Source: Streptomyces sp. NBC_00440 (GTDB lineage Bacteria > Actinomycetota > Actinomycetes > Streptomycetales > Streptomycetaceae). Taken from it: a stretch of DNA of 64,000 nt. Under the pieces are notes generated by a model. That model was not told where the DNA came from. It made no database searches and worked only from the letters and a program-made list of their open reading frames with translations. The stretch is taken from positions 6,383,501-6,447,500 of the forward strand of contig NZ_CP107921.1 in the NCBI RefSeq assembly GCF_036014215.1, in the 5' to 3' direction. Below are positions 5,100-55,920 of the stretch, one piece after another. Numbering within the stretch: the first letter of the stretch is position 1; each line of letters begins with the position of its first letter. Position numbers and translations under genes: made by a program.

Positions 5100-5130
5100 G
5101 GGGCGCCGCCGAAGACGGCCCTGGCGACGG

Positions 5131-14901: not shown

Positions 14902-15032
14902 CCGGGCCGCCCATCACTACAGAGGCTGCGGCGACTTCGACAGCCGCGACGGCCGGCCACGGCCGCCGCGTCGCCGGTGACATCCCCCGCAACATTCCGC
15001 TTCCCTGCAACACGAGATCGGTCAAGGTGGAG

Positions 15033-30601: not shown

Positions 30602-30608
30602 GGCTGTG

Positions 30609-39600: not shown

Positions 39601-41969
39601 CCGCGGCCGTGCACGACCGTACGAGGCAGGCACTGGAAGCCGTCCAGGCCTATCTCGCCGAGGACCGGCTCGCCGGAACCAGGCTGCTCGTCCTCACCCG
39701 GGGCGCCGTGGCGATGTCCGGCGAGGACGTGACCGACCTGGCGGGTGCGACGGTATGGGGGCTGGTGCGCGCGGCGCAGCAGGAGAACCCCGGCCGCATC
39801 CTGCTCGCCGACACGGACGAGGACCTCGGCACGGACGATGGTCCCGGCACGGTGGCCGACGTCGAAGTGCCGCGGATCGCTGCCGCGGCCGCTGCGGAGT
39901 CCCAGGCGGTGCTGCGGGGCGGTACCGCCCATGTGGCGAGGCTGAGCAGGGTCCCGGCAGGCCCCGTGCGCCCCGGCGGGTTCGGCGAGGCCGGCACGGT
40001 GCTGGTCACCGGCGCCTCGGGCACCCTCGGCCGGCTGATCGCGCGTCACCTCGTGGCCACCCATGGAGTCAGGCACCTGCTCCTGACCAGCAGGCGCGGT
40101 GCGGCCGCCGACGGCATACCGCAGCTGATGGACGAACTGACCGCGATGGGGGCCGAGGTCCGGGCCGTGGCGGCCGACGCGGGTGACCGTGCCCAGCTGG
40201 CCGCCGTACTGGACGGCATACCGGCAGCACACCCGCTGACCGGTGTGGTGCACGCGGCGGGGCTGCTGGACGACGGAGTGATCGCCACACTGACGCCCGG
40301 ACGTGTCGATGCGACTCTGCACAGCAAGGTCGATGCCGTACTCCATCTCCACGAACTCACCAAGGAGTTGGACCTCACCGCGTTCGTGCTGTTCTCCTCC
40401 ATGGCCGGTGTGTTCGGCAACGCCGGCCAGGCCGGCTACTCGGCGGCCAACGCCTTCCTGGACGCCTTCGCCACGCACCGCAGGGCCGCCGGACTCCCGG
40501 GAACCTCGCTCGCCTGGGGCGCCTGGTCCAGGGACGTGGGCATGGCGAGCACGCTGACCGACCACGACCGGGAGCGGATGAGCGGGCGCGGCATCGACGA
40601 ACTCACCACCGACCAGGGGCTCGCGCTCTTCGACGCGGCGATCCGTGCGGAGGCTCCCGTACTGCTCCCGGTCGGTTTCAACCCGGCGGTGCTCGCCGCG
40701 GCGGGCGAGGAACTGCCGCCCCTGCTGCGCGGCCTGGTGCCCGCGGTCAGGCGCCGCCCGGCCGGTGCCGGTGCACCAGTTCAGGTATCCGTACGCGAAC
40801 AGCTGGCCGGTCTGGACGAGCAGGAGCAGGAGGCGCTGCTCCTCCAGCTCGTCAGGGACGGCTCGGCCAAGGTCCTGGGGCACGACAGTGCCGACGCGGT
40901 GGACCCGGAGCGGGACTTCCTGGAGTCGGGCTTCGACTCGCTGACCTCCCTCGAACTGCGGAACGGCCTCAACCGGGCAACCGGGCTGCGGCTTTCGCCG
41001 ACCGCTGTGTTCGACAACAAGACCCCGGCCGAGCTGGCCCGGTTCCTGCACGGCCTGCTGGCGGCGCAGGCGCCGTCGGGGGCGAGCGAAGCGGAGGCGG
41101 GTGAGGTCTCCGGAGCGGGCTCTCTGAGCACACTGTTTCGGGCAGCGGCCGAGGCAGGGCGGATGGACAAGGGATTCGACCTGCTGCGTACGGTGGCCGA
41201 CTTCCGGCCGACGTTCGACGCGGCGGCACAGGCCGGACCGCTCGCGGCTCCGGTACGGCTGGCCGAAGGCCCGGGCGCACCCCGGCTGATCTGCATCAGC
41301 ACCCCCATGGCAACCGGAGGCGTCGCCCAGCACGCCCGGCTGGCCGCGGCGTTCCGGGGGGAACGCCAGGTCTCCGCGGTACCGCTGCCGGGATTCCGGA
41401 CCGGGGAGCCGCTGCCCGCGAGTACATCCGCCGCGGTCGACGTCGTGGCAGGCGCGGTGCTCGACGCCGCCGAGGGCGAACCGTTCGTCCTGATCGGCTA
41501 CTCGGCCGGCGGCACACTCGCGTACGCGACCGCCGCGTACCTGGAGAACGAACTGGGCATCACCCCGGCCGGAGTCGTCCTGCTCGACAGCTTCCGGATG
41601 GACTCGGCGACGGGCGGGGTGTCACTGGACGCCCTGGCGCACGGGCTGCTCGCCAAGGAGTCCGCCTTCGGCGGCTTCGACGACGCACGGCTTTCGGGCA
41701 TGGCGGGCTGGGGCAAGGTCCTCTCCGAGTTCGCACCGGCCCCCGTGGCCGCTCCGGTGCTGCTCGTGCAGTGCACGGAGTCCTTCGCACCGTCCGGGGA
41801 GAGCGAGGGGCAGGACGCCGACACCTGGCGGGCCCAGCCCTGGTTCCCGGAACATGACGTCGCCCCGATACGGGCGAACCACTTCACGGTCATCGAGGAG
41901 CAGGCGACGGACACCGCCGCGCTGATCTCCGACTGGCTCAACTCAACGGATCGAGGGCGAACTTCATGA
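30609..41969 (+). CDS. Type I PKS, last two modules plus thioesterase: KS-AT(atypical)-DH-KR-ACP, KS-AT(malonyl)-DH-KR-ACP-TE (PKS D)
   Basis: The 3786-residue subunit starts at ATG 30609 (GTGAGG upstream), 7 bases after PKS C. First module: KS Cys193; AT Ser653 in GHSQG but FAAH (754-757) where methylmalonyl ATs have YASH, so a bulkier or ACP-linked extender is likely, methoxymalonyl-ACP being the obvious candidate here; DH His960; KR with Tyr1541 and TDN in place of LDD; ACP Ser1709. Second module: KS Cys1933; AT Ser2387 and HAFH 2484-2487 (malonyl); DH His2690 with Glu2694 in place of the motif Gly; B-type KR with Tyr3277; ACP Ser3444. A C-terminal TE follows, with Ser3632 in GYSAG and a late NHF histidine. 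This TE should release the chain by attack of the starter amine, giving a macrolactam. The stop overlaps the next start (ATGA). Confidence 0.95.
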   Translation: MGGSEQKLVDALRASVKEAERLRTQNRKLAAASSEPIAIVGMACRYPGGADSADALWQLVADETDAISAFPDNRGWDLERLYDPEARRENTSYVDQGGFLHEAGDFDAEFFGISPNEALIMDPQQRLLLETAWEAFEHAGIDPRPLKGSPTGVFTGMMYHDYTHNNNSGAIASGRISYVFGFEGPSVTLDTACSSSLVSLHLAAQALRSGECTLALAGGVAVMSTPETFIEFSRQKASARDGRCKSFAAAADGSAWAEGSGLLLLERLSDARRNGHQVLAVIKGSAVNQDGASNGLSAPHGPSQRRVIRQALENSGLTPADVDVVEAHGTGTTLGDPIEVQALLATYGQDRPADRPLWLGSLKSNIGHTQTAAGAAGVIKMVQAMRHGLLPRTLHVDEPTDQVDWSTGNVRLLTEARPWPENERPRRAGVSSFGFSGTNAHVIVEQAPELSPEQATDRGSAPVPEQPPQQATGVLPWALSARTGPALRAQAGRLIAHLDEHPGLRAADVGHSLLTGRTVFDQRAVVVGSDRESLLTGLHALSEGLPSAGLVQGTAEEPGKTVFVFPGQGSHWPGMAAGLLDVSEVFTARMHECARALAPHIDWSPLEVARQAPDAPTLDRVDVAQPMLWAVMISLAEVWRAHGVRPSAVIGHSQGEIAAACVAGALSLEDGARIVALRSKALLSISGKGAMMSIVKPVDFVRERLGPYGDRISVAAENGPNAVVVSGDAVALREFETVLAKARAMRWTIPGVDFAAHSAHVEEIAGELADALSGVTPRAPEVPVYSTLTGALLPATDAMDSAYWYRNLRSPVQFHQAALAALADGHTLFVECSPHPVLRPGLEEIFEDTGARAASVGSLAREDAGPTRMTLSLAEAHVRGASVDLTRCAPAGERVALPTYAFQRRRDWIIPDAGASDVTALGQLPVEHPLLGAAVALADSDGYVFTSRLSLQTHPWLGDHDALGTVLVPGTGLVELAIRAGDQVECDVLEELTLRAPLVLPRQGGIHLQVVVGSPDDALRRGVQVYSRLQDATTDPWTLHAEGVLGCGAASPSFELTEWPPVDATEVSLDGAYDRLLEQGYYYGPVFQGLKALWTRGDEVFAEAVLPEQAHADAERFGLHPALFDAAMHAGLLEDGGSRDGATVLPFAWSGVTLHAAGAKALRVRITKAEHDSVSVAVADATGRAVLSVDSLAALPVTAEQLGAAGEGRRELPYRISWQPVPGEGADENTEFTEWDARYEGETAPDTVVHRVEPSVADDVLGGVRDIAHRTLAALQEWLADERFANSRLAVVTRHAVAVTGSEPGQGSTGAPDGDIDLGQAPVWGMVRAAQAENPGRFLLVDLGTVDGPQGLAAAIGSGETETAVRDGVVLTPRLVAANHPEDAAPPVLNPAGTVLITGGTGGIGAEVARHLATVHGVRHLLLTSRRGEQTPGVGELRTELAALGAETTVAACDVTDRAALTALLGTVPAGHPLTGVVHAAGVTDNGLLSTLTPERFDAVLGAKADAAWHLHELTRDMDLGLFLLFSSSGGMVLASGQANYAAANVFLDALAVHRHHHGLAGTSLAWGLWLGAGMSGLLQDVDLQRMARQGLPGFRVDEGLALLDTSLEIGAPVLAPLRIDQAALRARADEIPALLRGLARVPGRRLRKAADGTSDASAVQRMLAGAGPEQRIRKLLDLVRSHVAGVLGHADPDALDPDQAFKDLGFDSLTAVELRNRLNAATGLRLPATLIFDHPTAQAVAAYLDTALAGVKPKQPNRAVPAEGLLAGESVAVVGMACRYPGGVSSPEGLWGVVSGGVDAVGVFPGDRGWDVGGLFDPVVGRAGKSYAREGGFLGGAGLFDAGLFGVSPNEALSMDPQQRLLLEASWEALERSGVDPLSLKGSATGVFAGLMYHDYGLGAEAAVTSGGSLVSGRVAYTLGLEGPAVTVDTACSSSLVAMHLAAQSLRSGESSLALAGGVTVMSTPDMFVDFSRQRGLAPDGRCKSFASGADGTALSEGVGVLVLERLSDARRNGHPVLALLKGSAVNQDGASNGMTAPHGPSQERVIQAALSIAGLRPIDVDVVEAHGTGTRLGDPIEAQALLATYGQDRAEDRPLWLGSVKSNIGHTQAAAGVAGVIKMVMALREGVLPRTLHVDEPSSQVDWSAGAVELLREERAWPAEVGRPRRAGVSSFGLSGTNAHVILEEPEPEPEPEALPVPVEVPVGGVVPWAVSGGSAEALRAQAAALLAHVEQGADVRPVDVAYSLATSRSALKHRAVVVAGDREGFVEGLRSVVSGAGRVVDSVRRGRVGFLFTGQGAQRVGMGRGLYEAFPVFAEAFDAVVGLLDAQLSDAGTDLSVREVVWGTDAGVLNRTVFAQAGLFAVEVALFRLLESWGVRPDFVAGHSIGEVAAAHVAGVLSLEDAVVLVAARGRLMQALPSGGVMVAVGAPEAEVAALLSGGVCIAAVNGPSSVVVSGAEGEVMELAGRIAALGRKTKRLDVSHAFHSVLMDPMLDDFAAVVEKLTFNAPQLSAVSTVTGGPVEGEWSDPGYWVRQVREPVRFADAVTALTARGVGSFVEVGPDAALVPMGVEVVGDDDGVAFVGLQRRGRDEATELLTGVGGLFARGVGVDWRAFFAGSSARLTELPTYAFQHQRYWAHSPVGSGDASSLGLGDPEHPLLGAVVELPGDDSRVLTGRLSPGLQPWLGDHRLGETILFPATGFVELALRAGDQVGCDVLEELTLQAPLVLAEDQGTQIQAVVAGPDASGRRSLSVYSRAEDASGGPWTCHVEGFLAPGARPAAFELTQWPPAGAEPMDVTDAYARLLGRGYGYGPVFQGLTAAWTAGEEIFAEITLPEEAHDDAGRLGLHPALLDAATHAALIHDGAPGGDSAVLPFAWMDVSLYATGASGLRVRLTPTEQGIALAVADQTGRPVLAAGSVLSRPVSLDQLGAAGAGGHHKSLYQVDWAPLPAPALDGPPLTWADWADWAGRAEHGAAVQDSPLPDLFLLRSRPGHDAAAVHDRTRQALEAVQAYLAEDRLAGTRLLVLTRGAVAMSGEDVTDLAGATVWGLVRAAQQENPGRILLADTDEDLGTDDGPGTVADVEVPRIAAAAAAESQAVLRGGTAHVARLSRVPAGPVRPGGFGEAGTVLVTGASGTLGRLIARHLVATHGVRHLLLTSRRGAAADGIPQLMDELTAMGAEVRAVAADAGDRAQLAAVLDGIPAAHPLTGVVHAAGLLDDGVIATLTPGRVDATLHSKVDAVLHLHELTKELDLTAFVLFSSMAGVFGNAGQAGYSAANAFLDAFATHRRAAGLPGTSLAWGAWSRDVGMASTLTDHDRERMSGRGIDELTTDQGLALFDAAIRAEAPVLLPVGFNPAVLAAAGEELPPLLRGLVPAVRRRPAGAGAPVQVSVREQLAGLDEQEQEALLLQLVRDGSAKVLGHDSADAVDPERDFLESGFDSLTSLELRNGLNRATGLRLSPTAVFDNKTPAELARFLHGLLAAQAPSGASEAEAGEVSGAGSLSTLFRAAAEAGRMDKGFDLLRTVADFRPTFDAAAQAGPLAAPVRLAEGPGAPRLICISTPMATGGVAQHARLAAAFRGERQVSAVPLPGFRTGEPLPASTSAAVDVVAGAVLDAAEGEPFVLIGYSAGGTLAYATAAYLENELGITPAGVVLLDSFRMDSATGGVSLDALAHGLLAKESAFGGFDDARLSGMAGWGKVLSEFAPAPVAAPVLLVQCTESFAPSGESEGQDADTWRAQPWFPEHDVAPIRANHFTVIEEQATDTAALISDWLNSTDRGRTS
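35896..38515 (+). repeat. Long intra-cluster repeat, copy in PKS D module 2 (KS-AT)
   Basis: Near-identical to 9431-12050 of PKS A. Identity begins abruptly at the ACP-KS linker, at the codons for AEGLLAGES, preceded by unrelated GC-rich linker DNA in both genes. Such a sharp edge at a domain boundary fits gene conversion or module duplication. Confidence 0.85.
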
Positions 41970-42883
41970 CGCTGGCACCCACCGCCAAGGGAACGGTCCC
42001 GTTCGGTGAGTACGAGACCTGGTACCGGATCACCGGCGACCTGAGCTCCGGACGCCCGCCCGTCGTCGTCGTACACGGCGGGCCCGGCAGCACGCACGAC
42101 TACCTGCTGAGCCTGACCGCGCTCGCCGAAGAGGGCTGGCCCGTCGTCCACTACGACCAGCTCGGCAACGGGGGCTCCACCCACCTGCCCGGACGCGGCG
42201 CCGACTTCTGGACCACCGACCTGTTCGAGGCCGAGCTGGACAACCTGATCCAGCGGCTCGGCATCGCCGGCGGCTACATCCTCTACGGGCAGTCCTGGGG
42301 CGGCATGCTGGTCGCCCGGCACGCCGCTGCCCGGCCGGCCGGACTGCACGGCCTCGTCATCGCCAACTCGCCCGCCTCGTACCCGCTGTGGCGCCAGGAG
42401 ATGGACCGGCTCCGGGCCGAACTGCCCCCGGGCGTCGATGAGACGCTACGCCGCCACGAGGCCGCGGGCACCACCGAGAACGACGAGTACCACCAGGCCA
42501 TGCGGGTCTTCTACGAGAAGCATGTCTGCCTGCTCAGGCCCTGGCCGCGGGACTACCTGGCCTCGTTCTACGAGGTCTACAACGACCCGACGGTGTACTA
42601 CACCATGAACGGCCCGACCGAGTTCCATGTCACCGGAACACTGCGCGACTGGTCCGTCGAGGACTGCTGCCCGGACATCGAGGTGCCGACGCTGCTGATC
42701 TCGGGACGGCACGACGAGGCCACCCCTGCCACCGTCCAGCCGTTCCAGGACCTCATACCGGACGTGAGGTGGGAGATCCTGGAGAACTCCAGTCACCTGC
42801 CGCACCTGGAGGAGCCGGAACTGTTCAACAAGATCATGACGGAGTATCTGACGAGTCTGCGGTCCGGGCAGAGAAACGTGTAG
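41966..42883 (+). CDS. Alpha/beta-hydrolase aminopeptidase, VinJ-like (removes the protecting amino acid)
   Basis: The 305-residue protein belongs to the proline iminopeptidase family. It has HGGPGST oxyanion loop near residue 33, nucleophile GQSWGG with Ser110, Asp250 in SGRHDEATP and His277 in SSHLPHLEEP. In vicenistatin biosynthesis the homologous VinJ cuts the N-terminal alanyl cap from the finished polyketide so the freed amine can close the macrolactam. The gene overlaps the end of the terminal PKS gene by 4 bases (ATGA), and VinK-, VinL- and VinM-like genes follow in the same order as I recall for that cluster, so the same role is very likely. It probably acts in the cytoplasm on the ACP- or TE-bound chain. 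Confidence 0.9.
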   Translation: MTLAPTAKGTVPFGEYETWYRITGDLSSGRPPVVVVHGGPGSTHDYLLSLTALAEEGWPVVHYDQLGNGGSTHLPGRGADFWTTDLFEAELDNLIQRLGIAGGYILYGQSWGGMLVARHAAARPAGLHGLVIANSPASYPLWRQEMDRLRAELPPGVDETLRRHEAAGTTENDEYHQAMRVFYEKHVCLLRPWPRDYLASFYEVYNDPTVYYTMNGPTEFHVTGTLRDWSVEDCCPDIEVPTLLISGRHDEATPATVQPFQDLIPDVRWEILENSSHLPHLEEPELFNKIMTEYLTSLRSGQRNV

Positions 42884-42915
42884 TCCGGGCAGCGGCAGGG
42901 GAGTCCGGGAACCGG

Positions 42916-42931
42916 TAGGGGCCGCTAGGGG
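42916..42931 (+). promoter_or_regulatory. Paired TAGGGG operator upstream of the VinK-like gene
   Basis: TAGGGG occurs at 42916-42921 and again at 42926-42931, exactly one helical turn apart. The second copy is followed by TACTGGCGGCGG, similar to the sequence after the second copy at 46089. The pair lies 94-109 bases upstream of the next ATG in a 141-bp intergenic gap. It probably marks an activator site with a promoter just downstream. Confidence 0.55.
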
Positions 42932-43024
42932 TACTGGCGGCGGCCCCACCGGAACAAACTGGCCGGGACGGCCGGAACCTGCCGTCGCACCGCCGATACG
43001 AGAATTGCGTAGGGGGACAGGACC

Positions 43025-43978
43025 ATGGAGAGTGCTCCGCCGTCCGGCAGCGCGACCAGCGCGGTCATTTTTCCCGGAATGGGTCCCTGCCCATTCAGTG
43101 ACGTGGCGAAGTTCATGCTGGTGAATCCCGCAGCGAGGAAACTCGTGGCCACTGCGGACGAAGTACTTGGATATTCACTCGTGGACCGGTTCCGGGAGAC
43201 CGAAGGGGATTACAGCGAATACGCCCAGGTCGCTTTCCTCGTCAACTGCCTGGCGCTGGCCGAATGGGCGGAGGAATCAATCGGGCTGCGGCCGGACCTC
43301 TGTGTGGGGCCGAGTTTCGGCGGAAAAGCAGTGGCCGTGTATTCGGGCGCCCTGCCCTTCGAGGAGGCCGTCGGCATGACGGCGCGCTGGGCGCGGGCCC
43401 TGGAGGAGTACTTCGCCGTCGCGCACCGGGACGTGGTGACGCACTCCTTCGCCCGCACCGATGAGGACGCGCTGGCCAAGATCCTGGCCGAGTTCGACGA
43501 GCAGGGCGAGTGGTACGACATCTCCTGCCGCGTCGACCACGACTTCCACATGCTCTCGCTCCACGAGAGCCGGCTGGAGTGGCTGAAGTCCCGTGTGCGG
43601 TCCCTCGGCGGTCTGCCGCTCTACACGATGCGCCCGCCGATGCACTCCGGCGCGTTCCGTCCGCTGCGCGACAGCGTGGAGCAGGACATCTTCGCCGACC
43701 TGCACTTCACCGACCCGGTGCGGCCGGTGGTCGCCGATCAGGACGGCCGCGTCCTCACCACGGGTGCGGAGGTGCGCGCCATGCTGCTGGACGGTTTCGT
43801 CCAGGCGGTCCAGTGGCCGGACGTGGTGACGGCGCTGAAGGACGCGGGCGTGCGGAAGGTGTTCGTCTCCGGTCCGGACAGCCTCTTCGGCCGGGTCGGC
43901 GTCACGACCCGCAACTTCGAGGTCGTTCCGGTCAATCCGAGGCTCGCGCTGCAGCCGCGCCGCCGGGGCGCCGCATAA
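43025..43978 (+). CDS. Discrete acyltransferase, VinK-like (dipeptidyl starter transfer to the loading ACP)
   Basis: The 317-residue acyltransferase-fold protein starts with IFPGMGPCPF (oxyanion region) and has nucleophile GPSFGG with Ser97. Unlike module ATs it has no HAFH or YASH specificity motif, and the Arg that binds a malonyl carboxylate is not evident. VinK of the vicenistatin pathway moves the alanyl-3-aminoisobutyryl group from VinL to the loading ACP of the first PKS. This protein fits that role: it sits next to the VinL-like ACP, and the first PKS here begins with a bare loading ACP with no AT of its own. The start at 43025 follows a G-rich RBS (AGGGGGACAG). It is convergent with the ACP gene. 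Confidence 0.9.
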   Translation: MESAPPSGSATSAVIFPGMGPCPFSDVAKFMLVNPAARKLVATADEVLGYSLVDRFRETEGDYSEYAQVAFLVNCLALAEWAEESIGLRPDLCVGPSFGGKAVAVYSGALPFEEAVGMTARWARALEEYFAVAHRDVVTHSFARTDEDALAKILAEFDEQGEWYDISCRVDHDFHMLSLHESRLEWLKSRVRSLGGLPLYTMRPPMHSGAFRPLRDSVEQDIFADLHFTDPVRPVVADQDGRVLTTGAEVRAMLLDGFVQAVQWPDVVTALKDAGVRKVFVSGPDSLFGRVGVTTRNFEVVPVNPRLALQPRRRGAA

Positions 43979-43991
43979 CGAGGGAACGCGC

Positions 43992-44043
43992 ACACAGAAG
44001 TGCCCTCCGTAATCGAGGAGATCGCGAAGGGCAATTTCTGTGT
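43992..44043. terminator. Bidirectional terminator hairpin between VinK-like and ACP genes
   Basis: ACACAGAAGTGCCCT (43992-44006) pairs with AGGGCAATTTCTGTGT (44028-44043) with one bulge and a mismatch. A second CTCC/GGAG pairing lies in the loop. The element lies between two convergent genes, in the right place to stop transcription from both sides. Confidence 0.65.
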
Positions 44044-44082
44044 CCGGACCCGCTGTTGTCCGGGGCCGCAGGAGGAACCGGG

Positions 44083-44325
44083 TCAGCGGGCGAGACTCCG
44101 GGAGACCGCCGCCCAGAGCACCCCCGGAGTCGCGAACGTCTCCGTGGTCAGCATGTCGTCGACGAAGCGAACGTCGTACATCGTCTCCAGTGACGCCAGC
44201 ATTTCCACGGTACCGAGCGAGTCCAGTCCGAGGTCACGCAGACCTGAATCGGCGGTCAGGGTCTCATGCGGACCCAGGAACGGCAGATACTTGCGCAGCA
44301 GCTCTTCGAATTGCTCGTCCCACAT
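44083..44325 (-). CDS. Discrete acyl carrier protein, VinL-like (starter amino acid carrier)
   Basis: The 80-residue ACP has the phosphopantetheine site DLGLDSLGTVEML with Ser36 and an N-terminal helix rich in acidic residues. In the vicenistatin-type route it first carries 3-methylaspartate, then 3-aminoisobutyrate after decarboxylation, and finally the capped dipeptide. It is the only gene of this supply pathway on the minus strand, diverging from the VinM-like gene. On the minus strand GGAG lies about 6 bases before the ATG at 44325. Confidence 0.92.
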   Translation of the reverse strand: MWDEQFEELLRKYLPFLGPHETLTADSGLRDLGLDSLGTVEMLASLETMYDVRFVDDMLTTETFATPGVLWAAVSRSLAR

Positions 44326-44348
44326 GGTGACTCCGCATCTTGTAATTG

Positions 44349-44421
44349 CTAGGTGCCGGACTGTGTGCCGGACTTGTGTGCCGGACTATGCGTCTGGCTA
44401 TGTGTCGGGCTATGTGCCGCA
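44349..44421. repeat. Six imperfect 12-bp tandem repeats in the divergent ACP / VinM-like promoter region
   Basis: Units begin at 44349, 44361, 44373 (13 bp), 44386, 44398 and 44410; the consensus is about CTATGTGCCGGA. They occupy most of the gap between the divergent starts (44325 and 44513). An AT-rich stretch (44421-44445, with AATAATTTTCAA) that probably holds the plus-strand promoter follows. The array may be a multi-site operator or a slippage-prone spacer. Confidence 0.75.
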
Positions 44422-44512
44422 ATAATTTTCAATGTGACTGTATTCGGCGTGTGCGATGAAGGCACCCCCTATCTCCCCCTTCTTTTCGGTACCTCTTGAG
44501 GAGGCTGGAAAC

Positions 44513-46081
44513 ATGTCCGCCGACAAGGCTCTCCACGCGCGCTTCTTGCGTGGTCTCGAACTTTCGCCCGGGAAGGCCGCGGTACGGGCCGGCCGGGAGT
44601 CCGTCACCTACGAGGAGGCCCACGAGCGTGCGCTGCGCTGGGCCGGCGCCCTGCTGGCAGGTTCGAGCGGGGAGAGCGCGCCGCGCGCGGTCGGCGTACT
44701 GGCCGCCAAGAGCGTCGACGCCTACGTGGGACTGCTGGCCGCGCTCTACGCCGGTGCCGCCGCCGTCCCGCTGAACCCCGGCTTCCCCGCCGCCCGCACC
44801 CGGTACATGCTCCAGACCTCCGGGGTGTCGGCGGTCCTGGCGGACGAACAGGGGCTGGCCGCGCTGGCGGACGGGGCCGCGCCCGGCACGGACCTTCCCG
44901 TCCTGCCGCTCGGCGGCGCATCCGTGCCCCACGGGCACCGGGCCATCGGGACCGGGCCACGCGGCACCCTCGACGCCCCGCGGCCCGCCGGGAGCGACGA
45001 CACCGCGTACATGCTCTTCACCTCCGGTTCCACCGGCCGGCCCAAGGGCGTACGGATCACCCACGGCAACCTGCACCACTACTTCCAACTCCTCGACCGG
45101 CGCTACGACTTCCACCAGGACGACGTCTTCTCCCAGACCTTCGACCTGAACTTCGACTGCGCCATGTTCGACGTCTTCAACGCCTGGGGCGCGGGAGCCA
45201 CTGTGCAGGCGGTGCCCGCGCAGGCCTACAGCGACATGCCGTCCTTCTTCGCCGGACACGACATCAGCGTCTGGTTCTCCACGCCGAGTGCCATCCCCCT
45301 GATCCGCAGGATGAGCGGCCTCGGGCCGGGATCCCTGCCCACACTGCGCTGGTCCCTGTTCGCGGGTGAGGCACTGAAGGCCGCCGACGCCGTGGACTGG
45401 CAGTCGGCGGCCCCCGGTTCGACGCTGGAGAACATCTACGGGCCCACCGAGCTGACCGTCACCATCACCGGGCACCGCTGGTCCCCGCAGGACTCGCCCG
45501 CCCGGTGCGTCAACGGCCTGGTCCCCATCGGCGCCGTCAACGAAGGCCACGACCACCTGCTGCTCGACGGCAACGGTGACCCGGTGCGGGGCGAGGGCGA
45601 ACTGTGCGTCACCGGGCCCCAGATGGTCCCCGGCTATCTGGATCCCGCCGACGAGCAGGGCCGCTTCCACCCCTACGACGGCCGTACGTGGTACCGCACG
45701 GGGGACAGGGTGCGCACGCTGGACAACGGAGAGCTGATCTACCTGGGCCGGCTCGACAACCAGGTGCAGATCCAGGGCTGGCGCGTCGAGCTCTCCGAGG
45801 TGGAGCACGCCCTGCGCGCAGCCGAAGGTGTCACGGAAGCGGTCGCCGTCACCCGCGCCTCGGGCAACGGACTCGAACTCGTCGTCTACTACACCGGATC
45901 CCCGACCGCGCCGTCCGTGCTGGCCAGGGAGCTGCGCCAGACGCTGCCGCAGGGGATGCTGCCGCGCGAGTACCGGCACCTGGACGAATTGCCCCTGAAC
46001 TCGAACCGGAAGATCGACCGGGGCAAACTCGCGGCCGCGTGCGCCACCGGGACCCCCATGGCTGAAACAGCAGTGGTTTAG
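44513..46081 (+). CDS. AMP-forming amino acid ligase, VinM-like (adds the protecting amino acid)
   Basis: The 522-residue protein is an NRPS-type adenylation enzyme. It has FTSGSTGRPKGV (P-loop, near residue 183), FDLNFD (the position of the Asp that binds an alpha-amino group), NIYGPTELTV, YRTGDRV, and the C-terminal GWRVELSEVE and NSNRKIDR with the catalytic Lys. By order and family it corresponds to VinM, which couples L-alanine to the amine of 3-aminoisobutyryl-ACP so that it is not attacked during chain growth. The exact amino acid cannot be read with certainty. I chose ATG 44513 because GAGGAGG (44498-44504) sits 8 bases upstream; an upstream in-frame ATG at 44456 lacks this and adds an unconserved leader. 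Confidence 0.88.
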   Translation: MSADKALHARFLRGLELSPGKAAVRAGRESVTYEEAHERALRWAGALLAGSSGESAPRAVGVLAAKSVDAYVGLLAALYAGAAAVPLNPGFPAARTRYMLQTSGVSAVLADEQGLAALADGAAPGTDLPVLPLGGASVPHGHRAIGTGPRGTLDAPRPAGSDDTAYMLFTSGSTGRPKGVRITHGNLHHYFQLLDRRYDFHQDDVFSQTFDLNFDCAMFDVFNAWGAGATVQAVPAQAYSDMPSFFAGHDISVWFSTPSAIPLIRRMSGLGPGSLPTLRWSLFAGEALKAADAVDWQSAAPGSTLENIYGPTELTVTITGHRWSPQDSPARCVNGLVPIGAVNEGHDHLLLDGNGDPVRGEGELCVTGPQMVPGYLDPADEQGRFHPYDGRTWYRTGDRVRTLDNGELIYLGRLDNQVQIQGWRVELSEVEHALRAAEGVTEAVAVTRASGNGLELVVYYTGSPTAPSVLARELRQTLPQGMLPREYRHLDELPLNSNRKIDRGKLAAACATGTPMAETAVV

Positions 46082-46094
46082 GGGTCGTTAGGGG
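46079..46094 (+). promoter_or_regulatory. Paired TAGGGG operator upstream of the P450 gene
   Basis: TAGGGG at 46079-46084 (its TAG is the stop codon of the VinM-like gene) and at 46089-46094, again 10 bases apart. The second copy is followed by TGCTGGAGGCG and, about 20 bases further on, GAATAGCG, a possible -10 element. The P450 ATG is at 46226. Confidence 0.55.
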
Positions 46095-46225
46095 TGCTGG
46101 AGGCGTCCCGCGCTGAATAGCGTTTGGCTCAAGAAACTCGCTCGTGCCGTGTGCGGGACCGTGGCCGCAGCCATTGACCGCGAGGTGGATCACCTGCCGG
46201 CAAGGCCCGTCCCAAGAGGGGAATC

Positions 46226-47461
46226 ATGACCGAAATAGCTGAAGCGGAAAACACTGAGGCAGAGGTAAGGCGCCCGTTTCCGCTTGCCGCTCGTTGTCCG
46301 TTCGGTGCACCGGCCGAGTACGCGGAGCTGCGTAAGACCGAACCGGTGTCCAAGGTGACCGTAGCCGTGAACGGCCGGCCCGCCTGGCTCTTCACCAAAT
46401 ACGACCTCATCCGGCAGATCCTCTCCGACCCCCGGCTGAGTGCGAACATCAAGCTGCCGGGATATCCGATCCCGATCAATGTGGACGACGCGTACGTCCA
46501 GACGGTCCGCCGGGGGCTCTTCAACCTGGACGGTCACGACCACGCCGTGCAGCGACGCCTTCTCGGCCCCGAGTTCAGCGTCAAGACGCTGGAGAAGCTG
46601 CGCCCGCGCATTCAGTCGATCGTCGACGGATACATCGACCGGATGATCGAGCAGGGTGGCCCTGTCGACCTGGTGGCGGCCCTCTCCATCCCCATGCCGT
46701 CGCAGGTCGTCTGCGAGATCCTGGGCATTCCCTTCCAGGACCGGGAAGTCTTCCAGAAGTGGTCGGGCACGCTGATGAACAGCGCCACCCTGCCCGAGGA
46801 GCAGATCCGGATCATCGGGCAGATGGAGGAGTACCTCGGCAAGCAGATCGCCGAGAAGGCCGCCAACCCCGGTGACGACCTGCCCAGCCGTGTCCTGGAG
46901 AAGAACGAGCGTGAGGGCCACGGCCTCACTCACGAGGACATCGCCTGGATGACGAACGTCCTGAATGGCGCCGCCCACGAGACCACGGCCAACAACCTCA
47001 CCCTCGGGGTCCTCGCGCTGCTCCAGCACCCGGACCAGCTCGCCGAGTTCAAGGCCGACCCCTCGCTCGCGCCCAAGGTCGTCGAAGAGGTGCTGCGTTA
47101 CGCCAGCACCAACGACTGGGGTACCTCCCGGGTCGCGACCGAGGACATCGAGATCGGCGGAGTGCTGATTCGCGCGGGTGACGGAATCATCACCTCACGC
47201 GTCGCGGCCAACTACGACGACGAGGCCTTCGAGGACCCGGGCACCTTCGACATCCACCGGGGCGCGAGCAGCCACCTCGCATTCGGATACGGCCCGCACG
47301 GGTGTGTCGCGCAGAACCTGGCACGCCTGGAACTCCAGATAGCCCTCACCACCCTGTTCACGCGCATTCCCGAGCTGCGGCTCGATGTTCCCGCCGTGGA
47401 ACTGCGTGTGCGCGAGGACGCGCTCATCCACGGGATTCACGAACTCCCGGTCACCTGGTAA
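46226..47461 (+). CDS. Cytochrome P450 (macrolactam tailoring oxidase)
   Basis: The 411-residue bacterial class I P450 has an I-helix AAHETT (the oxygen-activating Thr is present, with His in place of the usual Gly/Asp-type residue), K-helix EEVLR and heme loop FGYGPHGCV with Cys360. The residue two after the Cys is Ala rather than the common Gly. It should hydroxylate or epoxidise the polyketide after or during assembly. It is followed 16 bases later by its own small ferredoxin, and the pair has an upstream TAGGGG operator. AGAGGGGA lies just before the ATG. Regiochemistry cannot be predicted from the sequence. Confidence 0.93.
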   Translation: MTEIAEAENTEAEVRRPFPLAARCPFGAPAEYAELRKTEPVSKVTVAVNGRPAWLFTKYDLIRQILSDPRLSANIKLPGYPIPINVDDAYVQTVRRGLFNLDGHDHAVQRRLLGPEFSVKTLEKLRPRIQSIVDGYIDRMIEQGGPVDLVAALSIPMPSQVVCEILGIPFQDREVFQKWSGTLMNSATLPEEQIRIIGQMEEYLGKQIAEKAANPGDDLPSRVLEKNEREGHGLTHEDIAWMTNVLNGAAHETTANNLTLGVLALLQHPDQLAEFKADPSLAPKVVEEVLRYASTNDWGTSRVATEDIEIGGVLIRAGDGIITSRVAANYDDEAFEDPGTFDIHRGASSHLAFGYGPHGCVAQNLARLELQIALTTLFTRIPELRLDVPAVELRVREDALIHGIHELPVTW

Positions 47462-47477
47462 CGGAGGAAATCCCCTT

Positions 47478-47675
47478 ATGCGTGTGCTGGTTGATGACGA
47501 TCGGTGCGTGGGTGCAGGCTGCTGTGTGCTCGCGGCGCCGGACCTGTTCGAGCAGAACGATGAGGACGGCCGGGTCTTTCTGCTCATCGACAATCCCGGT
47601 TCCGAGCTGCGCGATGCCGTGCTCGAAGCCATTGACGTCTGCCCGGCGGACGCGCTCAAGCTGATCGACGAGTAA
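47478..47675 (+). CDS. 3Fe-4S ferredoxin partner of the P450
   Basis: The 65-residue acidic protein has the single-cluster pattern C10-x5-C16 ... C55-P (a further Cys15 is present). It lacks the fourth cysteine spacing of 4Fe-4S proteins, which is typical of Streptomyces ferredoxins that donate electrons to P450s. Start ATG 47478 has GGAGGA 9 bases upstream. Next to the P450 with a 16-base gap, so co-transcribed. No ferredoxin reductase gene is in the window. Confidence 0.93.
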   Translation: MRVLVDDDRCVGAGCCVLAAPDLFEQNDEDGRVFLLIDNPGSELRDAVLEAIDVCPADALKLIDE

Positions 47676-47680
47676 TTGCG

Positions 47681-47715
47681 CGGTACGTGGGGAGTTTCTG
47701 ACTCCCCACGTACCG
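47681..47715 (+). terminator. Perfect 15-bp hairpin between ferredoxin and the starter/extender operon
   Basis: The arms CGGTACGTGGGGAGT (47681-47695) and ACTCCCCACGTACCG (47701-47715) are exact complements around a 5-base loop. The hairpin starts 5 bases after the ferredoxin stop. Only 43 bases separate it from the next start, leaving little room for a promoter, so it may act as a partial terminator or an mRNA-stabilising 3' end rather than a full stop. Confidence 0.8.
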
Positions 47716-47758
47716 GAATGCGACCCGGCCCGCCTTTTCCAGAAATCGGAGAACGGCT

Positions 47759-49306
47759 TTGCATGCCCAAAATCAACTGACCGATCGTGAAACGGGACTC
47801 GCGTACCCGCAGGGGACACTCGTCCACAGCCTGCTGGACGACGCCACGGCAGAGGTGCCCGATGCCCGCGCCGTACGCGACTCCGTCACCGCCCTGAGCT
47901 ACCGCAGGCTGCACGAGCTGAGCCACGCCGTCGCCCACTGGCTGCGGGGACAGGGCGTCGCCCCCGGTGATCGGGTGGTCGTGCAACTGCCCAGCCGGGT
48001 CGAACTGGTCGCCCTGTTCTACGGAGTCGTACGGTGCGGCGCGATCTTCGTGCCGCTCAACCCGGCCATGAAGCGGTTCCACCTCTCGTCGGTGCTGGAG
48101 AACGCGGAGCCGGCGCTGGTCATCGGCGACGCCGCCTCGGCTCCCGGTCTGCGCGAGAACACCGCCGTACCGGTCCACGACATCTCCGTCGCCTGGACCC
48201 ACATCCTCGCCGTGGCCGACAGGACGCCGGAGCCGGTGGCCGTCGAGGTCGGCGTCGAGGACGTCGCCGCCCTCGTCTACACCTCGGGCAGCACCGCGGC
48301 CCCCAAGGCCGTGGTGTGCCCGCACCGGCAGGTCACCTTCGCATCGTCGGCGATCAACGCGGAGCTGGGATACCGCGCGGACGACGTGGTCTTCTGCCGC
48401 TTCCCGCTCTCCTGGGACTACGGCCTGTACAAGGTCCTGCTCTCCTGCCTGGGGCGTTCCGAACTGATCCTCGCCGGCGAGGAGTCCGACCTCGTCCTGC
48501 TCACACGTATGCGGGAGACCGGCGCCACCGTCGTGCCGATCGTGCCCTCGCTCGCCGCGATGATCGCCACCCTCGCTGCCCGGGACACCGGACAGCCGCC
48601 GCCGGTACGGATGTTCACCAACACCGGCGCCGCCCTCCCGGCGACCACCATCTCGGCGCTGCGGGAGGCGTTCCCCGGCGTACGGGTGGTGCGCCAGTTC
48701 GGGCAGACCGAGTGCAAGCGGATCTCCATCATGCCGCCCCACGAGGACGGCGAACGCCTCCAGTCGGTCGGCCGCCCGCTGCCCGGCACCCGGGTGCTGA
48801 TCCTCGACGCGGACGGCGCCGAACTGCCGGTCGGCGAGACCGGCGAGATCGTGGCCGCGGGACCGCATGTGATGCCCGGCTACTGGCGTTCCCCCGAGCT
48901 GTCGGCCGGCAACTTCCGGCCGGACCCGGTCACCGGCGAACCGCGCCTGCACACCGGCGACTACGGAAGCCTCGACGCCGACGGCTACCTCTACTTCGAG
49001 GGCCGCCGGGACGACATGTTCAAACGCAAGGGCATCCGCATGAGCACCGTCGAGATCGAGGCGGCCGCCATGGACGTCCCCGGTGTCCGGGTCGCCGCGG
49101 TGCTCCCGCCGCACGACGGGCGGGACCTGACGGTCTTCGTCGAAGCCGATCTGGCGCCGACCGTCGTGCTCAAGGAGCTGGCGAAGCGGCTGGAACCCGC
49201 CAAGGTACCCGCCCTGTGCAAGGTCATCCCCGAACTGCCGCTGACGCTCCACGGGAAGAACGCGCGCCAGGCGCTGATCGACATGCTCGAAGGGGAGGGA
49301 CGGTGA
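47759..49306 (+). CDS. Beta-amino acid (3-methylaspartate) adenylating ligase, VinN-like
   Basis: The 515-residue acyl-adenylating enzyme has YTSGSTAAPK (P-loop), FPLSWDYGL with Asp220, FTNTGAALP, FGQTECKR, HTGDYGSLD, and C-terminal FKRKGIRMSTVEIE and GKNARQ with the catalytic Lys. In the VinN family the SWD aspartate binds the beta-amino group, and this enzyme keeps it. It should load (2S,3S)-3-methylaspartate onto the discrete ACP (44083-44325). The start is a TTG at 47759 with TCGGAGA upstream; a nearby ATG at 47763 is out of frame and hits a stop at once. It overlaps the decarboxylase gene by GTGA. Confidence 0.9.
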   Translation: MHAQNQLTDRETGLAYPQGTLVHSLLDDATAEVPDARAVRDSVTALSYRRLHELSHAVAHWLRGQGVAPGDRVVVQLPSRVELVALFYGVVRCGAIFVPLNPAMKRFHLSSVLENAEPALVIGDAASAPGLRENTAVPVHDISVAWTHILAVADRTPEPVAVEVGVEDVAALVYTSGSTAAPKAVVCPHRQVTFASSAINAELGYRADDVVFCRFPLSWDYGLYKVLLSCLGRSELILAGEESDLVLLTRMRETGATVVPIVPSLAAMIATLAARDTGQPPPVRMFTNTGAALPATTISALREAFPGVRVVRQFGQTECKRISIMPPHEDGERLQSVGRPLPGTRVLILDADGAELPVGETGEIVAAGPHVMPGYWRSPELSAGNFRPDPVTGEPRLHTGDYGSLDADGYLYFEGRRDDMFKRKGIRMSTVEIEAAAMDVPGVRVAAVLPPHDGRDLTVFVEADLAPTVVLKELAKRLEPAKVPALCKVIPELPLTLHGKNARQALIDMLEGEGR

Positions 49307-50544
49307 CCCGTCACGAAGAGCTGGCGGTGCGCTACGGCACACCCCTCTACGTCTACGACCTCGCCGAGGTCACCGCGGCCCGCCGCGAGCTGTTCGACGC
49401 GCTGCCCGAGAGCTTCCACCTCTACTACGCGCTCAAGGCGAACCCCCACCCCGACCTGGTCCGGGCGCTGCGCGAGGGCGAAGGCCGGACCTGCCGCCCC
49501 GAGATCAGCTCGACGGGCGAACTCGCTGCCGCGCTCGAAGCGGGATTCTCCGGCGCGGACTGCCTCTACACGGGCCCCGGCAAGACCCTCGGGGAGCTGA
49601 GTGAGGCCATCGGCCTGGGCGTGCGGATGTTCTCGACGGACTCCGTCACCGATGTGCGCAGGGTCGGCGCGGCCGCGCTGGAACACGGCGTCGTGGCCGA
49701 CTGTCTGCTCCGTATCAACAGCGCGTCGGCCAGCGCCACCAGCAGCATCCGGATGACAGGCACCCCCTCGCAGTTCGGCTTCGACAGCGAGACGCTCGCC
49801 GAAGTGCTGCCCGAACTGCGGGACGTCCCCGGCACCCGGCTCACGGGCATGCACTTCTTCCCGCTGAGCAACGCCAAGGACGAGGAATCGCTGATCGGCG
49901 AGTTCCAGCACACCATCGCCGTCGCCGCGCAGCTCCACCAGGAGCTGGACATCCCGCTGGAATACCTGGACATCGGCGGCGGCTTCACCGTCCCGTACGG
50001 AGTCCCGGGCGAGCGCGGCAGCTACCCCAAGCTCCGCGCCGAACTCGAAGCCGCCCTCGACACGCACTTCCCCGAGTGGCGGTCCGGCAGCCCCAGGCTG
50101 GCCTGCGAATCGGGCCGCTTCCTCATCGGCGCGAGCGGCACGCTGCTCGCCTCCGTCAGCAACGTCAAGGTCAGCCGCGGCCGTAAGTTCGTGATCACGG
50201 ACGCCGGCATCAACACCTTCGGCGGCATGTCGGGCCTGGGACGGCTGCTGCCCGTGGCGGTGCAGCCCCGGGCGGGTGCCGATGTGGAGTCCGCGAGCCT
50301 GGTCGGCCCCCTGTGCACGCCCGGTGACGTACTGGGCCGGGAGATCAAACTGCCGGTGCTCCGGGCCGACGACCTCGTCAGTGTCCCCAACGTCGGAGCG
50401 TACGGCCCCACCGCGAGCCTCCTCATGTTCCTCGGCAGGCCGGCGCCCACCGAGGTGACCGTCCGTGCGGACGGGAGCGTCTCCGCCTCGCGCATCGAAC
50501 ACCACCGCGCGTACCTGCCGACCGGAACCGGAGCACGAGAGTGA
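49303..50544 (+). CDS. PLP-dependent decarboxylase, VinO-like (methylaspartyl-ACP to 3-aminoisobutyryl-ACP)
   Basis: The 413-residue fold type III PLP enzyme is related to diaminopimelate/ornithine decarboxylases. PLP Lys45 is in YYALKANPHP, the Gly-rich phosphate loop is DIGGGFTVPYG, and the catalytic Cys is in GPLCTPGD, followed by NVGAYG. VinO-type enzymes remove the alpha-carboxyl of 3-methylaspartate while it is bound to the ACP. The GTG start overlaps the ligase stop and its own stop overlaps the mutase small-subunit start, so all three are translationally coupled. A role in primary lysine synthesis is unlikely in this setting. Confidence 0.9.
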   Translation: MTRHEELAVRYGTPLYVYDLAEVTAARRELFDALPESFHLYYALKANPHPDLVRALREGEGRTCRPEISSTGELAAALEAGFSGADCLYTGPGKTLGELSEAIGLGVRMFSTDSVTDVRRVGAAALEHGVVADCLLRINSASASATSSIRMTGTPSQFGFDSETLAEVLPELRDVPGTRLTGMHFFPLSNAKDEESLIGEFQHTIAVAAQLHQELDIPLEYLDIGGGFTVPYGVPGERGSYPKLRAELEAALDTHFPEWRSGSPRLACESGRFLIGASGTLLASVSNVKVSRGRKFVITDAGINTFGGMSGLGRLLPVAVQPRAGADVESASLVGPLCTPGDVLGREIKLPVLRADDLVSVPNVGAYGPTASLLMFLGRPAPTEVTVRADGSVSASRIEHHRAYLPTGTGARE

Positions 50545-51032
50545 ACAGCGCACCGTCCGCAGTCCTCCCCCCGAGTCCGGAGGCGCCCGCTGCCCGCGGC
50601 ACCGTCGTCGTCACCGGGATGGCTTCCGACTCCCACACCTGGAACCTGGTCTTCCTCCAGCTCCTGGTGGAAGAGCTGGGATACGACGTCGTCAACCTCG
50701 GCCCGTGCGTGCCCGACGAACTCCTCGTCGACGAATGCCGCGCGCTCTCCCCCCACATGGTCGTCATCAGCAGTGTCAACGGACACGGCTATCAGGACGG
50801 AATGCGCGTCATCGGCCGGCTGCGGTCCTGCGCGGAGCTCGCCGACACCCCCGTCGTCATCGGCGGGATGCTCGGCATCTCCGATGAGAACGCCACCTAC
50901 GTCGACGAGCTGATGGCGGCCGGCTTCCACGCCGTGTTCGAGGGCAGCAGCACCGCGGGCTTCCAGGACTTCGTCCACTCGCTGCCCGCGAAGGCCGGCG
51001 CCACGGCGGAGATGGCCGCTGTCGCGTCATGA
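50541..51032 (+). CDS. Glutamate (methylaspartate) mutase, B12-binding small subunit
   Basis: The 163-residue cobalamin-binding domain has SDSHTWN at the site of the classical DxHxxG motif: the cobalt-ligand His is kept but the Gly is Asn. LGYDVVNLGPCVPDE, VISSVNGHGYQDG and VIGGMLG follow, as in the MutS/GlmS fold. With the next gene it forms the adenosylcobalamin enzyme that converts L-glutamate to L-threo-3-methylaspartate, the precursor of the starter unit. GTG start in a GTGA overlap with the decarboxylase; its stop overlaps the next start in an ATGA. The first ~18 residues are Pro/Ala-rich and not part of the fold. Confidence 0.92.
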   Translation: MNSAPSAVLPPSPEAPAARGTVVVTGMASDSHTWNLVFLQLLVEELGYDVVNLGPCVPDELLVDECRALSPHMVVISSVNGHGYQDGMRVIGRLRSCAELADTPVVIGGMLGISDENATYVDELMAAGFHAVFEGSSTAGFQDFVHSLPAKAGATAEMAAVAS

Positions 51033-52441
51033 CCTCCATCGTCCGCTCGGTGCGCCGGGCCCTCGCCCACAGCCGGCCCGTCGACTTCGGTGCGTTCGTA
51101 CGCCGTGCGGGCGGCTCGGGCGGGCTCGTCGTCCAGCCGCGCATGGGGTTCGGCGGCCCCGGCCCGATGCGGACGGGCCTCGCCGCGACCAGGGCGGCCA
51201 GGGCCACCACGGTCGGCACCATCACCCTCGACAGCTTCACCCGCGTCGGTGAACTGGAGTCGGTCGAGGAAGCCCTGCGCCACGGAGTGGGCCTCAACGG
51301 CTATCCGATCGTCACCTACGGGACGGAGGTCACCGAAGCGGTACTCGACGGCATCCGGGACCACCGCTTCCCGGTACAGGTCCGGCACGGCTCCGCCGTA
51401 CCGCAGGACATCTTCGAACGGCTCATCGAGCTGCGCCTCAACGCGACCGAGGGCGGCCCCGTCTCCTACTGCCTGCCGTACGGGCGCACCGCTCTCGCCG
51501 ATTCCATCGAGAACTGGCAGCAGTGCACACGGCGCTACGCCACCCTGCTGGAGGCCGGGGTCGAACCCCATCTGGAGACCTTCGGCGGCTGCATGCTGGG
51601 ACAACTCTGCCCGCCCAGCATGCTGGTGGCGCTCAGCGTCCTGGAAGCACTGTTCTTCTGCCGGTACGGAATCCGCAGCGTCTCCGTCAGCTACGCCCAG
51701 CAGACCAGCGCCGCCCAGGACAGGGAAGCGGTGCTCGCCCTGCGCCGGCTCTGCGCCGAACTCCTGCCGACCGAGAACTGGCACGTGGTCATCTACGCCT
51801 ACATGGGCGTCTACCCGATGACCGACCACGGCGCACAGGCCCTGCTGGGCCGGGCGGCCGAACTGGCGGTCGGCACCGGGTCGGAGCGGCTCATCGTCAA
51901 GACCGTCGCGGAGTCCCGCCGCATCCCCACCGTCGAGGAGAACGTCGACGCGCTGGAATTCGCCGGGGACACCGCCGCGGGCAGCGGGCCGGTGATCGGT
52001 GACGCGGATGCCACCGACTCGCAGACCTACCGGGAGGCCCGCGCTCTCGTCGAGGCCACCCTGGACCTCGACCGCGACATCTCGCGGGCACTGCTCCTCG
52101 CCTTCCGGCGGGGGTTCCTCGACATCCCGTACTGCCTCCACCCGGACAACCGCGGCAGCTGCCGCAGCTACATCGACGGGGACGGCCGGCTGCGCTGGGC
52201 CGACACCGGCTCGCTCCCCCTGGGCGGGCTGGCCGAGGGCGGGCACAGCCGCCGGGTCACCTCGGCCGGGCTGCTCACCGACCTCTCCTACATGCGCCGC
52301 CGATTCGACGAGGCGCCACCTGGACCCGCGCCGCTGCCCGGCCCGCGTGACGGGGCCGCCGGCGCACCCCGTACGCCCCTTCAGGGGGCCACCCGAGCGA
52401 CCGTACAACCGCCAGCGAAGGACGGTGCACAGAGCCGATGA
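51029..52441 (+). CDS. Glutamate (methylaspartate) mutase, catalytic large subunit
   Basis: The 470-residue protein matches the epsilon/E subunit of glutamate mutase: VVQPRMGFGGPGPM near residue 38 (substrate and cofactor face), LNGYPIVTYG, VRHGSAVP (substrate-binding Arg region), YCLPYGRT, HLETFGGCMLGQLCPPS and DIPYCLHPDNRG near the C-terminus. A Pro/Gly-rich tail of about 40 residues after the fold is probably disordered. Together with the small subunit it catalyses the carbon-skeleton rearrangement of L-glutamate. It overlaps both neighbours by 4 bases, giving 1:1 coupled translation. Confidence 0.92.
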   Translation: MTSIVRSVRRALAHSRPVDFGAFVRRAGGSGGLVVQPRMGFGGPGPMRTGLAATRAARATTVGTITLDSFTRVGELESVEEALRHGVGLNGYPIVTYGTEVTEAVLDGIRDHRFPVQVRHGSAVPQDIFERLIELRLNATEGGPVSYCLPYGRTALADSIENWQQCTRRYATLLEAGVEPHLETFGGCMLGQLCPPSMLVALSVLEALFFCRYGIRSVSVSYAQQTSAAQDREAVLALRRLCAELLPTENWHVVIYAYMGVYPMTDHGAQALLGRAAELAVGTGSERLIVKTVAESRRIPTVEENVDALEFAGDTAAGSGPVIGDADATDSQTYREARALVEATLDLDRDISRALLLAFRRGFLDIPYCLHPDNRGSCRSYIDGDGRLRWADTGSLPLGGLAEGGHSRRVTSAGLLTDLSYMRRRFDEAPPGPAPLPGPRDGAAGAPRTPLQGATRATVQPPAKDGAQSR

Positions 52442-54693: not shown

Positions 54694-54717
54694 CTCGAAC
54701 GAGGGGAAGAACACGAC

Positions 54718-55827: not shown

Positions 55828-55885
55828 CCGGGGGATCCGTCCCCGCCCTGACCCGGCCGCCCCGCACCTGCCCCGCTCCTCCGAC

Positions 55886-55920
55886 ACCGCCGTCGGCACC
55901 CCCTACGGGGTACCGGCGGT
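55886..55920 (+). terminator. Stem-loop downstream of fkbH
   Basis: ACCCC (55899-55903) pairs with GGGGT (55907-55911) around a short CTA loop. The stem extends outward with ACCGCCG (55886-55892) against CGGCGGT (55914-55920). A TAGGGGG element follows at 55928, so the gap may hold both a terminator and a new promoter for the O-methyltransferase gene. Confidence 0.5.

Follow-up and report, generated by a model that had tools for sequence, protein, structure and literature searches.

Among described macrolactam systems, vicenistatin (genes vinH-vinO of Streptomyces halstedii) is the reference for the starter pathway considered here, and the logic of this pathway is set out in the review of Kudo 2024 (PMC11284099), in which VinH and VinI are the S and E subunits of the mutase. 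There, a vinI mutant is described that no longer produces vicenistatin but yields a desmethyl analogue, for which L-Asp is the supposed source. Weddellamycin is assembled by an 11-module polyketide synthase (PKS) in which a ketoreductase (KR) without its catalytic Tyr is linked to the C-13 ketone, a module without dehydratase (DH) to the C-11 hydroxyl and an acyltransferase (AT) with the motif YASH to the C-8 methyl group (PMC11051340). The sceliphrolactam PKS has ten modules for a 26-membered ring; the keto-forming step is missing between SceQ and SceR, and iteration was proposed (PMC5785472). A 2023 survey listed 435 genomes encoding macrolactams (PMC10662134).

In this work, we focused on a stretch of 64,000 nucleotides of Streptomyces sp. 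NBC_00440 (contig NZ_CP107921.1, positions 6,383,501 to 6,447,500; hereafter the window, numbered from its first letter), taken from the larger of the two contigs of an 8.68-Mb genome, and more precisely on the genes at 41966-52441, which very probably encode a 3-aminoisobutyrate (i.e. 3-amino-2-methylpropionate, 3-Amp) starter pathway of a polyene macrolactam cluster. This cassette is an ordinary, standard member of a common known family, lifted slightly above routine by its surroundings. For the whole cluster, the boldest reading, to which we give a probability of about 45 %, has an undescribed O-methylated 24-membered polyene macrolactam as product; together with clusters of Actinomadura sp. 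WMMA1423 and of a Hamadaea metagenome-assembled genome (MAG), it would found a methoxymalonyl branch of the 3-Amp macrolactams, in which the methoxymalonyl position varies, perhaps via repeat-driven recombination, and its module 5 with an inactive KR would be the module absent from the sceliphrolactam PKS.

Open reading frames (ORFs) were scanned with Pfam and NCBIfam and the proteins were compared with all solved structures, stretches of 20 kb on both sides of the window being added for the reading of the PKS. The mutase E subunit was further used as query of a genome scan, which returned 473 relatives; the best 80 loci were kept for gene-set counts, with fetched flanks of at most 10 kb that were often ended by contig ends.

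The eight starter genes are all open, without internal stops, and follow the order J-K-L-M-(P450-ferredoxin)-N-O-S-E; the homologues of VinJ, VinK, VinL, VinM, VinN, VinO and of both mutase subunits listed in a preliminary description of this DNA were thus all recovered, with Pfam and solved-structure matches. All lie on the plus strand, except the carrier gene. The VinJ-type amidohydrolase (41966..42883), expected to take off the protecting aminoacyl group, passes the cut-off of NCBIfam TIGR01250 and matches best 3wmr_A, which we take to be VinJ (525.9 bits). It is followed by the VinK-type dipeptidyl acyltransferase (43025..43978; Pfam VinK_C 110 bits, 5czc_A 437.5 bits) and by the VinL-type standalone acyl carrier protein (ACP) of the PP-binding family (44083..44325, minus strand; 6m01_B 103 bits, 5czd_B 100, 8k4r_B 99). 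A plus-strand ORF at 44000-44425 was also considered for VinL and discarded, no Pfam family being matched there; the carrier is the antisense ORF. The VinM-type ligase predicted to add the protecting alpha-amino acid (44513..46081) scores 646.7 bits with 8k4r_A and 621 bits with 6akd_A, presumably VinM and IdnL7, respectively. Between it and the VinN-type ligase (47759..49306; 3wvn_A 618.9 bits) stand two genes that extend the list of the preliminary description, a cytochrome P450 (46226..47461; Pfam p450) and a small ferredoxin, its probable partner (47478..47675; Pfam Fer4_13). The VinO-type pyridoxal phosphate-dependent decarboxylase (49303..50544; Pfam Orn_Arg_deC_N), predicted to act on an ACP thioester, has as closest solved relative BtrK (186 bits), a decarboxylase working on an ACP-bound glutamyl group. 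The glutamate mutase S (50541..51032; above the Pfam B12-binding cut-off) and E subunits (51029..52441; Pfam MutE 272.4 bits, cut-off 26.6; 1cb7_B 111 bits) close the cassette, their genes forming a single run with the decarboxylase gene, in which neighbours overlap by a few bases. Mutase E is the sole MutE match of the genome.

The vicenistatin enzyme is the best solved match of J, K, M and N and the second best of the carrier L; the scores against solved structures (rounded, 619 bits for the VinN-like, 526 for the VinJ-like, 437 for the VinK-like and 647 for the VinM-like protein) exclude chance. Motifs kept in the printed alignments are GQSWGG in VinJ, GxSFG in VinK, GLDSL in VinL, the LKAN lysine in VinO, and RHG and EGGxxSY in mutase E. 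The vicenistatin-type pathway that had been proposed is hence supported at the level of sequence, with an enzyme present for each step and the checkable catalytic motifs retained.

Compared with ligases of solved structure, the 47759 ligase scores 618.9 bits with VinN (3wvn; 6m01 is the HitB-HitD entry, PMC11253843), 140.2 with IdnL1 (5jjq), 135.6 with HitB (7dq5) and 132.2 with CmiS6 (5jjp), and a 3-aminobutyrate, beta-Phe or 3-amino fatty acid starter is ruled out by these scores. The VinN residues named for specificity are D230, F231, S299, K330 and R331 (PMC11253843); the ligase keeps D230 and the short K330-R331 loop, and has Tyr at Phe231 and Thr at Ser299. The resulting signature, D-Y-T-G-K-R, was found in 65 of the 66 genome loci in which VinN was matched at E <= 1e-100, including locus L072 of SirexAA-E, the exception being L073 with D-F-S-A-K-R, and in 120 of 120 protein homologues (the best 120 of 928, a sample biased to close relatives). 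An unusual specificity due to F231Y and S299T was consequently rejected, as nearly all relatives examined share both changes and VinN is the exception.

By analogy with the vicenistatin enzymes, from which the catalytic steps, the protecting group and the product are inferred, the pathway would start with glutamate mutase (50541 and 51029) converting L-Glu into (2S,3S)-3-methylaspartate, which the 47759 ligase would load onto the carrier encoded at 44083 on the minus strand. The 49303 decarboxylase would then act on carrier-bound 3-methylaspartate to give 3-aminoisobutyrate, the 44513 ligase would attach an alpha-amino acid as protecting group (for VinM this is Ala, Ser or Gly), and the 43025 acyltransferase would pass the resulting dipeptide to the PKS at 56749, onto its bare loading ACP. 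Once the chain has been extended ten times, the 41966 enzyme would strip the protecting residue and the thioesterase of the PKS at 30555-41969 would close the lactam, while the P450-ferredoxin pair may oxidise the aglycone further.

Among the 80 loci, both mutase subunits were present in 78 (thresholds as used) and the complete eight-gene set lay inside the fetched flanks of 44. These 44 loci show the order J K L M N O S E in 40 cases, J L N O S E K M in three and S E J K L M N O in one; in 23 of them the carrier gene runs in the opposite direction, and a P450 stands between M and N in two, i.e. L048 (Actinomadura sp. WMMA1423) and L008, the same cluster in Streptomyces sp. NBC_01306. The latter strain holds the starter cassette at 99-100 % protein identity, so that the host is a close relative of it. 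Within the genus, VinK_C was found in 58 and MutE in 114 of 295 genomes, the source genome counted. The cassette is textbook; its use is that of a dependable marker: with the starter and the way of release fixed, the class of the product follows, and a definite mass and structure can be predicted for the cluster.

Six PKS genes with ten extension modules were read in the window and its flanks. PKS A (56749..73149, plus strand; the window ends at 64000) comprises by domain reading a loading ACP and three modules with ketosynthase (KS), AT, DH, KR and ACP; its bare loading ACP, already pointed out in the preliminary description, is a carrier domain at residues 72-140 with the motif GFDSL and a KS directly after it. 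PKS B (73169-78460, outside the window) has one module by domain reading. The four others are on the plus strand: PKS C (9349..14901, 1850 aa) holds module 5, whose KR lacks the catalytic Tyr and which is predicted to leave a ketone; PKS D (15027..19748, 1573 aa) holds module 6, KS-AT-KR-ACP without DH, with a predicted hydroxyl; PKS E (19793..30601) holds module 7, with a YASH AT predicted for methylmalonyl, and module 8; and PKS F (30555..41969) holds module 9, with the AT motif FAAH and probably methoxymalonyl, module 10 and the terminal thioesterase. The Ser-Tyr-Asn pattern, missing from the KR of module C, is present in the nine other KRs, and a pattern scan of the ten modules found no enoylreductase motif. 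The module order A-B-C-D-E-F is assumed, A being placed by its loading ACP, F by its thioesterase, and the middle by gene order and by the relatives of the KS of D.

Strong G/T strand skew was observed at or inside the KS-AT DNA of the PKS genes (9200-12099, 16100-17699, 25600-27899, 35700-38599 and 63400-65199, and 68800-69999 outside the window), with a GC skew of 0.27-0.35 and an AT skew of -0.32 to -0.41. The KS-AT segments of malonyl type nearly duplicate one another (C vs F2, 91.2 % over 2533 bases; A3 vs C, 94.2 % over 981; other pairs, 83-88 %), and these skewed, repeated stretches match the published description of GRINS (genetic repeats of intense nucleotide skews).

Adjoining the starter cassette, five methoxymalonyl-ACP genes stand side by side on the plus strand at 52438-56715, encoding a 3-hydroxyacyl-CoA dehydrogenase (52438-53304), the cassette ACP (53301-53591), an acyl-CoA dehydrogenase (53566-54693), FkbH (54718-55827; 347.5 bits vs a curated cut-off of 146.65) and an O-methyltransferase (55996-56715). 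They would feed methoxymalonyl-ACP to the PKS, the probable recipient being the AT of module 9 (F1), the only one with FAAH; of the others, eight carry HAFH and one, E1, YASH, motifs whose meaning for AT specificity is given in PMC6164871. With the F1 AT as query, eight genomes picked from the loci gave 32 matches, 16 of which were read as loci: FAAH was found in two, L088 (Actinomadura sp. WMMA1423) and L089 (Hamadaea MAG), and YASH in the 14 others; the AT of L092 is YASH. Both FAAH genomes also hold starter and methoxymalonyl genes. In WMMA1423, the starter cassette and the FAAH module are no more than 80 kb apart, together with four of the five methoxymalonyl genes, next to which the stretch begins. 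In the Hamadaea MAG, locus L041 has K to E of the starter set and all five methoxymalonyl genes, VinJ not being seen in the fetched stretch, and the FAAH module is on a different contig. Neither methoxymalonyl genes nor a FAAH AT occur in the 80 kb read of SirexAA-E, and no methoxymalonyl genes were found in the fetched flanks of ST-888, Kutzneria buriramensis and Herbihabitans.

Two further Streptomyces loci, L019 and L060, were examined as members of the same branch and rejected, since VinJ/K and type I PKS are missing from the fetched stretch. Their mutase and decarboxylase genes (in L060 also the ligase gene) stand beside a methoxymalonyl cassette and perhaps belong to another product class using 3-methylaspartate.

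It is unlikely, although conceivable, that the FAAH AT of module 9 takes methylmalonyl-CoA and that the methoxymalonyl cassette serves another pathway. FAAH ATs fall clearly in the methylmalonyl-like group and carry GHSQGE, and the identity of the module 9 AT, in a comparison holding no characterised methoxymalonyl AT, is 65 % and 57 % to the two other FAAH ATs but 47-58 % to YASH ATs. Against methylmalonyl use, the other nine ATs of the cluster are canonical, both FAAH loci lie in genomes with methoxymalonyl genes, and the eight ATs read from four comparison genomes are all YASH. On this co-occurrence, we retain methoxymalonyl as the probable unit of module 9, and the correlation between the FAAH motif and methoxymalonyl is testable.

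If the PKS is colinear, the product would be a 24-membered aglycone with 4-OMe, 8-Me, 11-OH, 13-keto and 22-Me groups, C26H33NO4 (derived by hand, for the state before P450 oxidation and with every DH taken as active except at the dead KR), with a computed [M+H]+ of 424.248, a prediction less certain than the starter pathway; we thus predict an O-methylated 13-keto-11-hydroxy polyene macrolactam related to weddellamycin. No glycosyltransferase was found among 16 downstream ORFs given to Pfam, in a non-exhaustive search that covered part of the upstream ORFs as well. The literature searched, which covers few subscription journals, describes no macrolactam joining a 3-aminoisobutyrate starter and methoxymalonyl: the word "methoxymalonyl" is absent from the main text of PMC9230918, PMC10662134 and PMC11284099, and PMC9137728 has a general mention only.

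Module number need not equal the number of extensions, and with the starter as described the PKS might not be colinear, module 5 or 6 being used twice to give a 26-membered ring. The precedent is sceliphrolactam itself, with its ten modules (PMC5785472), and ten KS domains were read in SirexAA-E, which according to the same paper holds a highly similar cluster. We nevertheless judge such an iteration improbable here. The KR-dead module 5 can itself give the ketone for which sceliphrolactam has no module, and iteration of C would yield two ketones; a dead KR was also sought in module 5 of SirexAA-E and dismissed, the KR there being intact with Ser-Tyr-Asn kept. Moreover, the KS of module D is nearest, at 70-71 %, to the DH-less post-keto modules of Actinomadura and Hamadaea rather than to the SirexAA-E module. 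The KR-dead module 5 and the relatives of the KS of D thus favour a colinear 24-membered product, and the "missing module" of sceliphrolactam would find its natural counterpart in module 5.

Several observations weigh against the O-methylated 24-membered macrolactam and its 3-Amp starter. The Tyr and Thr of the ligase pocket differ from VinN itself; as the variant is the family norm, it is no argument against 3-methylaspartate. The mutase subunits stay below the NCBIfam methylaspartate mutase cut-offs (E, 157.9 vs 390.1; S, 50.2 vs 110), and the solved matches of S are general B12-binding proteins only, none close. The canonical cobalamin motif is DxHxxG; S of the window has DxHTWN, like the S subunits of 77 of the 78 loci, the remaining locus having DSHTWG. 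In the PKS, the DH of module 1 is degenerate (in HxxxGxxxxP, G is replaced by D and P by S) and, among the nine DHs compared, those of B, E1 and F2 have the G replaced, so that some predicted double bonds could be hydroxyls. The ten modules and 26-membered ring of sceliphrolactam bear on ring size as discussed above. Finally, in L019 and L060 mutase and methoxymalonyl genes occur together, but the 21 kb fetched hold neither VinJ/K nor a type I PKS. Nor did these two genomes show a FAAH AT: three of the 11 AT matches of the first were read, and the second gave no match at the threshold.

A beta-alanine starter made from L-Asp (fluvirucin type), with the mutase serving something else, is very improbable. 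VinN does take L-Asp at low efficiency, the desmethyl analogue of the vinI mutant is supposed to come from Asp, and FlvN belongs to the same carboxylate-recognising class as VinN (PMC11284099), the 47759 ligase having been set beside VinN, IdnL1, HitB and CmiS6; on the other side, the overlap of the mutase genes with each other and with the decarboxylase gene, and the recurrence of the eight genes together in 44 of the 80 mutase-fetched loci, speak for a role of the mutase in making the starter. That the cluster is a decayed relic without product can hardly be credited either: it has one dead KR and one degenerate DH, but the starter genes and PKS frames are all open, and the working weddellamycin system has a dead KR at this position (PMC11051340).

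Other genes surround the cluster. Beside the PKS, on the minus strand, are a type II thioesterase (8223..9077; Pfam Thioesterase 192 bits), a 4'-phosphopantetheinyl transferase (6548..7681), an S-adenosylmethionine synthetase (5223-6440) and a methylenetetrahydrofolate reductase (4176-5147). The genome has four matches each to metF and metK (one metF with an internal stop), with three metK-metF pairs 0.1 to 4.5 kb apart, and another metK elsewhere is 98 % identical to the cluster-side one; such pairs may be dedicated to supplying biosynthetic clusters with methyl donors. Downstream, at 85000-102000 (window numbering, L004), a group encoding NeuB, a transketolase, a CDP-alcohol phosphatidyltransferase, a class IV aminotransferase and ATP-grasp ligases looks like a separate small biosynthetic cluster.

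Compared with vicenistatin, the window has the same eight enzyme types. The gene order, given as nearly that of vicenistatin in the preliminary description, differs in that the mutase genes close the cassette instead of opening it, the carrier gene has the reverse orientation, and a P450 and a ferredoxin are inserted between M and N. The ligase pocket has Y and T for F and S, and no sugar-transfer genes were found among the ORFs given to Pfam. The sole vicenistatin-like locus of our set is L073, with the mutase genes first (S E J K L M N O).

Sceliphrolactam (sce) shares the ten modules and the same starter set. All sce KRs are reported intact, with the keto module missing and two methylmalonyl ATs, whereas the keto module of the window is the KR-dead one; around the SceQ/SceR gap, the corresponding window genes are C (KR dead) and D (no DH).

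The Actinomadura sp. WMMA1423 (L048) and Hamadaea (L041) clusters share with the window the starter, the methoxymalonyl genes, the FAAH AT and a keto module followed by a DH-less one; there, the FAAH module directly precedes the keto module, whereas it is module 9 in the window. Twelve KS-containing modules were counted in the Actinomadura stretch, whose keto module has a KR without Tyr, as here. In the Hamadaea keto module (L110, L111) neither DH nor KR was found, which together with the Tyr-less KRs of Actinomadura and the window might form a decay series.

Lastly, weddellamycin, bombyxamycin and piceamycin have the same run of dead KR, DH-less module and YASH AT as the window, with an equal number of modules afterwards, and weddellamycin also has a P450 and a ferredoxin (PMC11051340). 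With ten and not eleven extension modules, the window has one fewer before the ketone than weddellamycin, from which the 24-membered ring is predicted, and it adds to this group the methoxymalonyl cassette and the FAAH AT.

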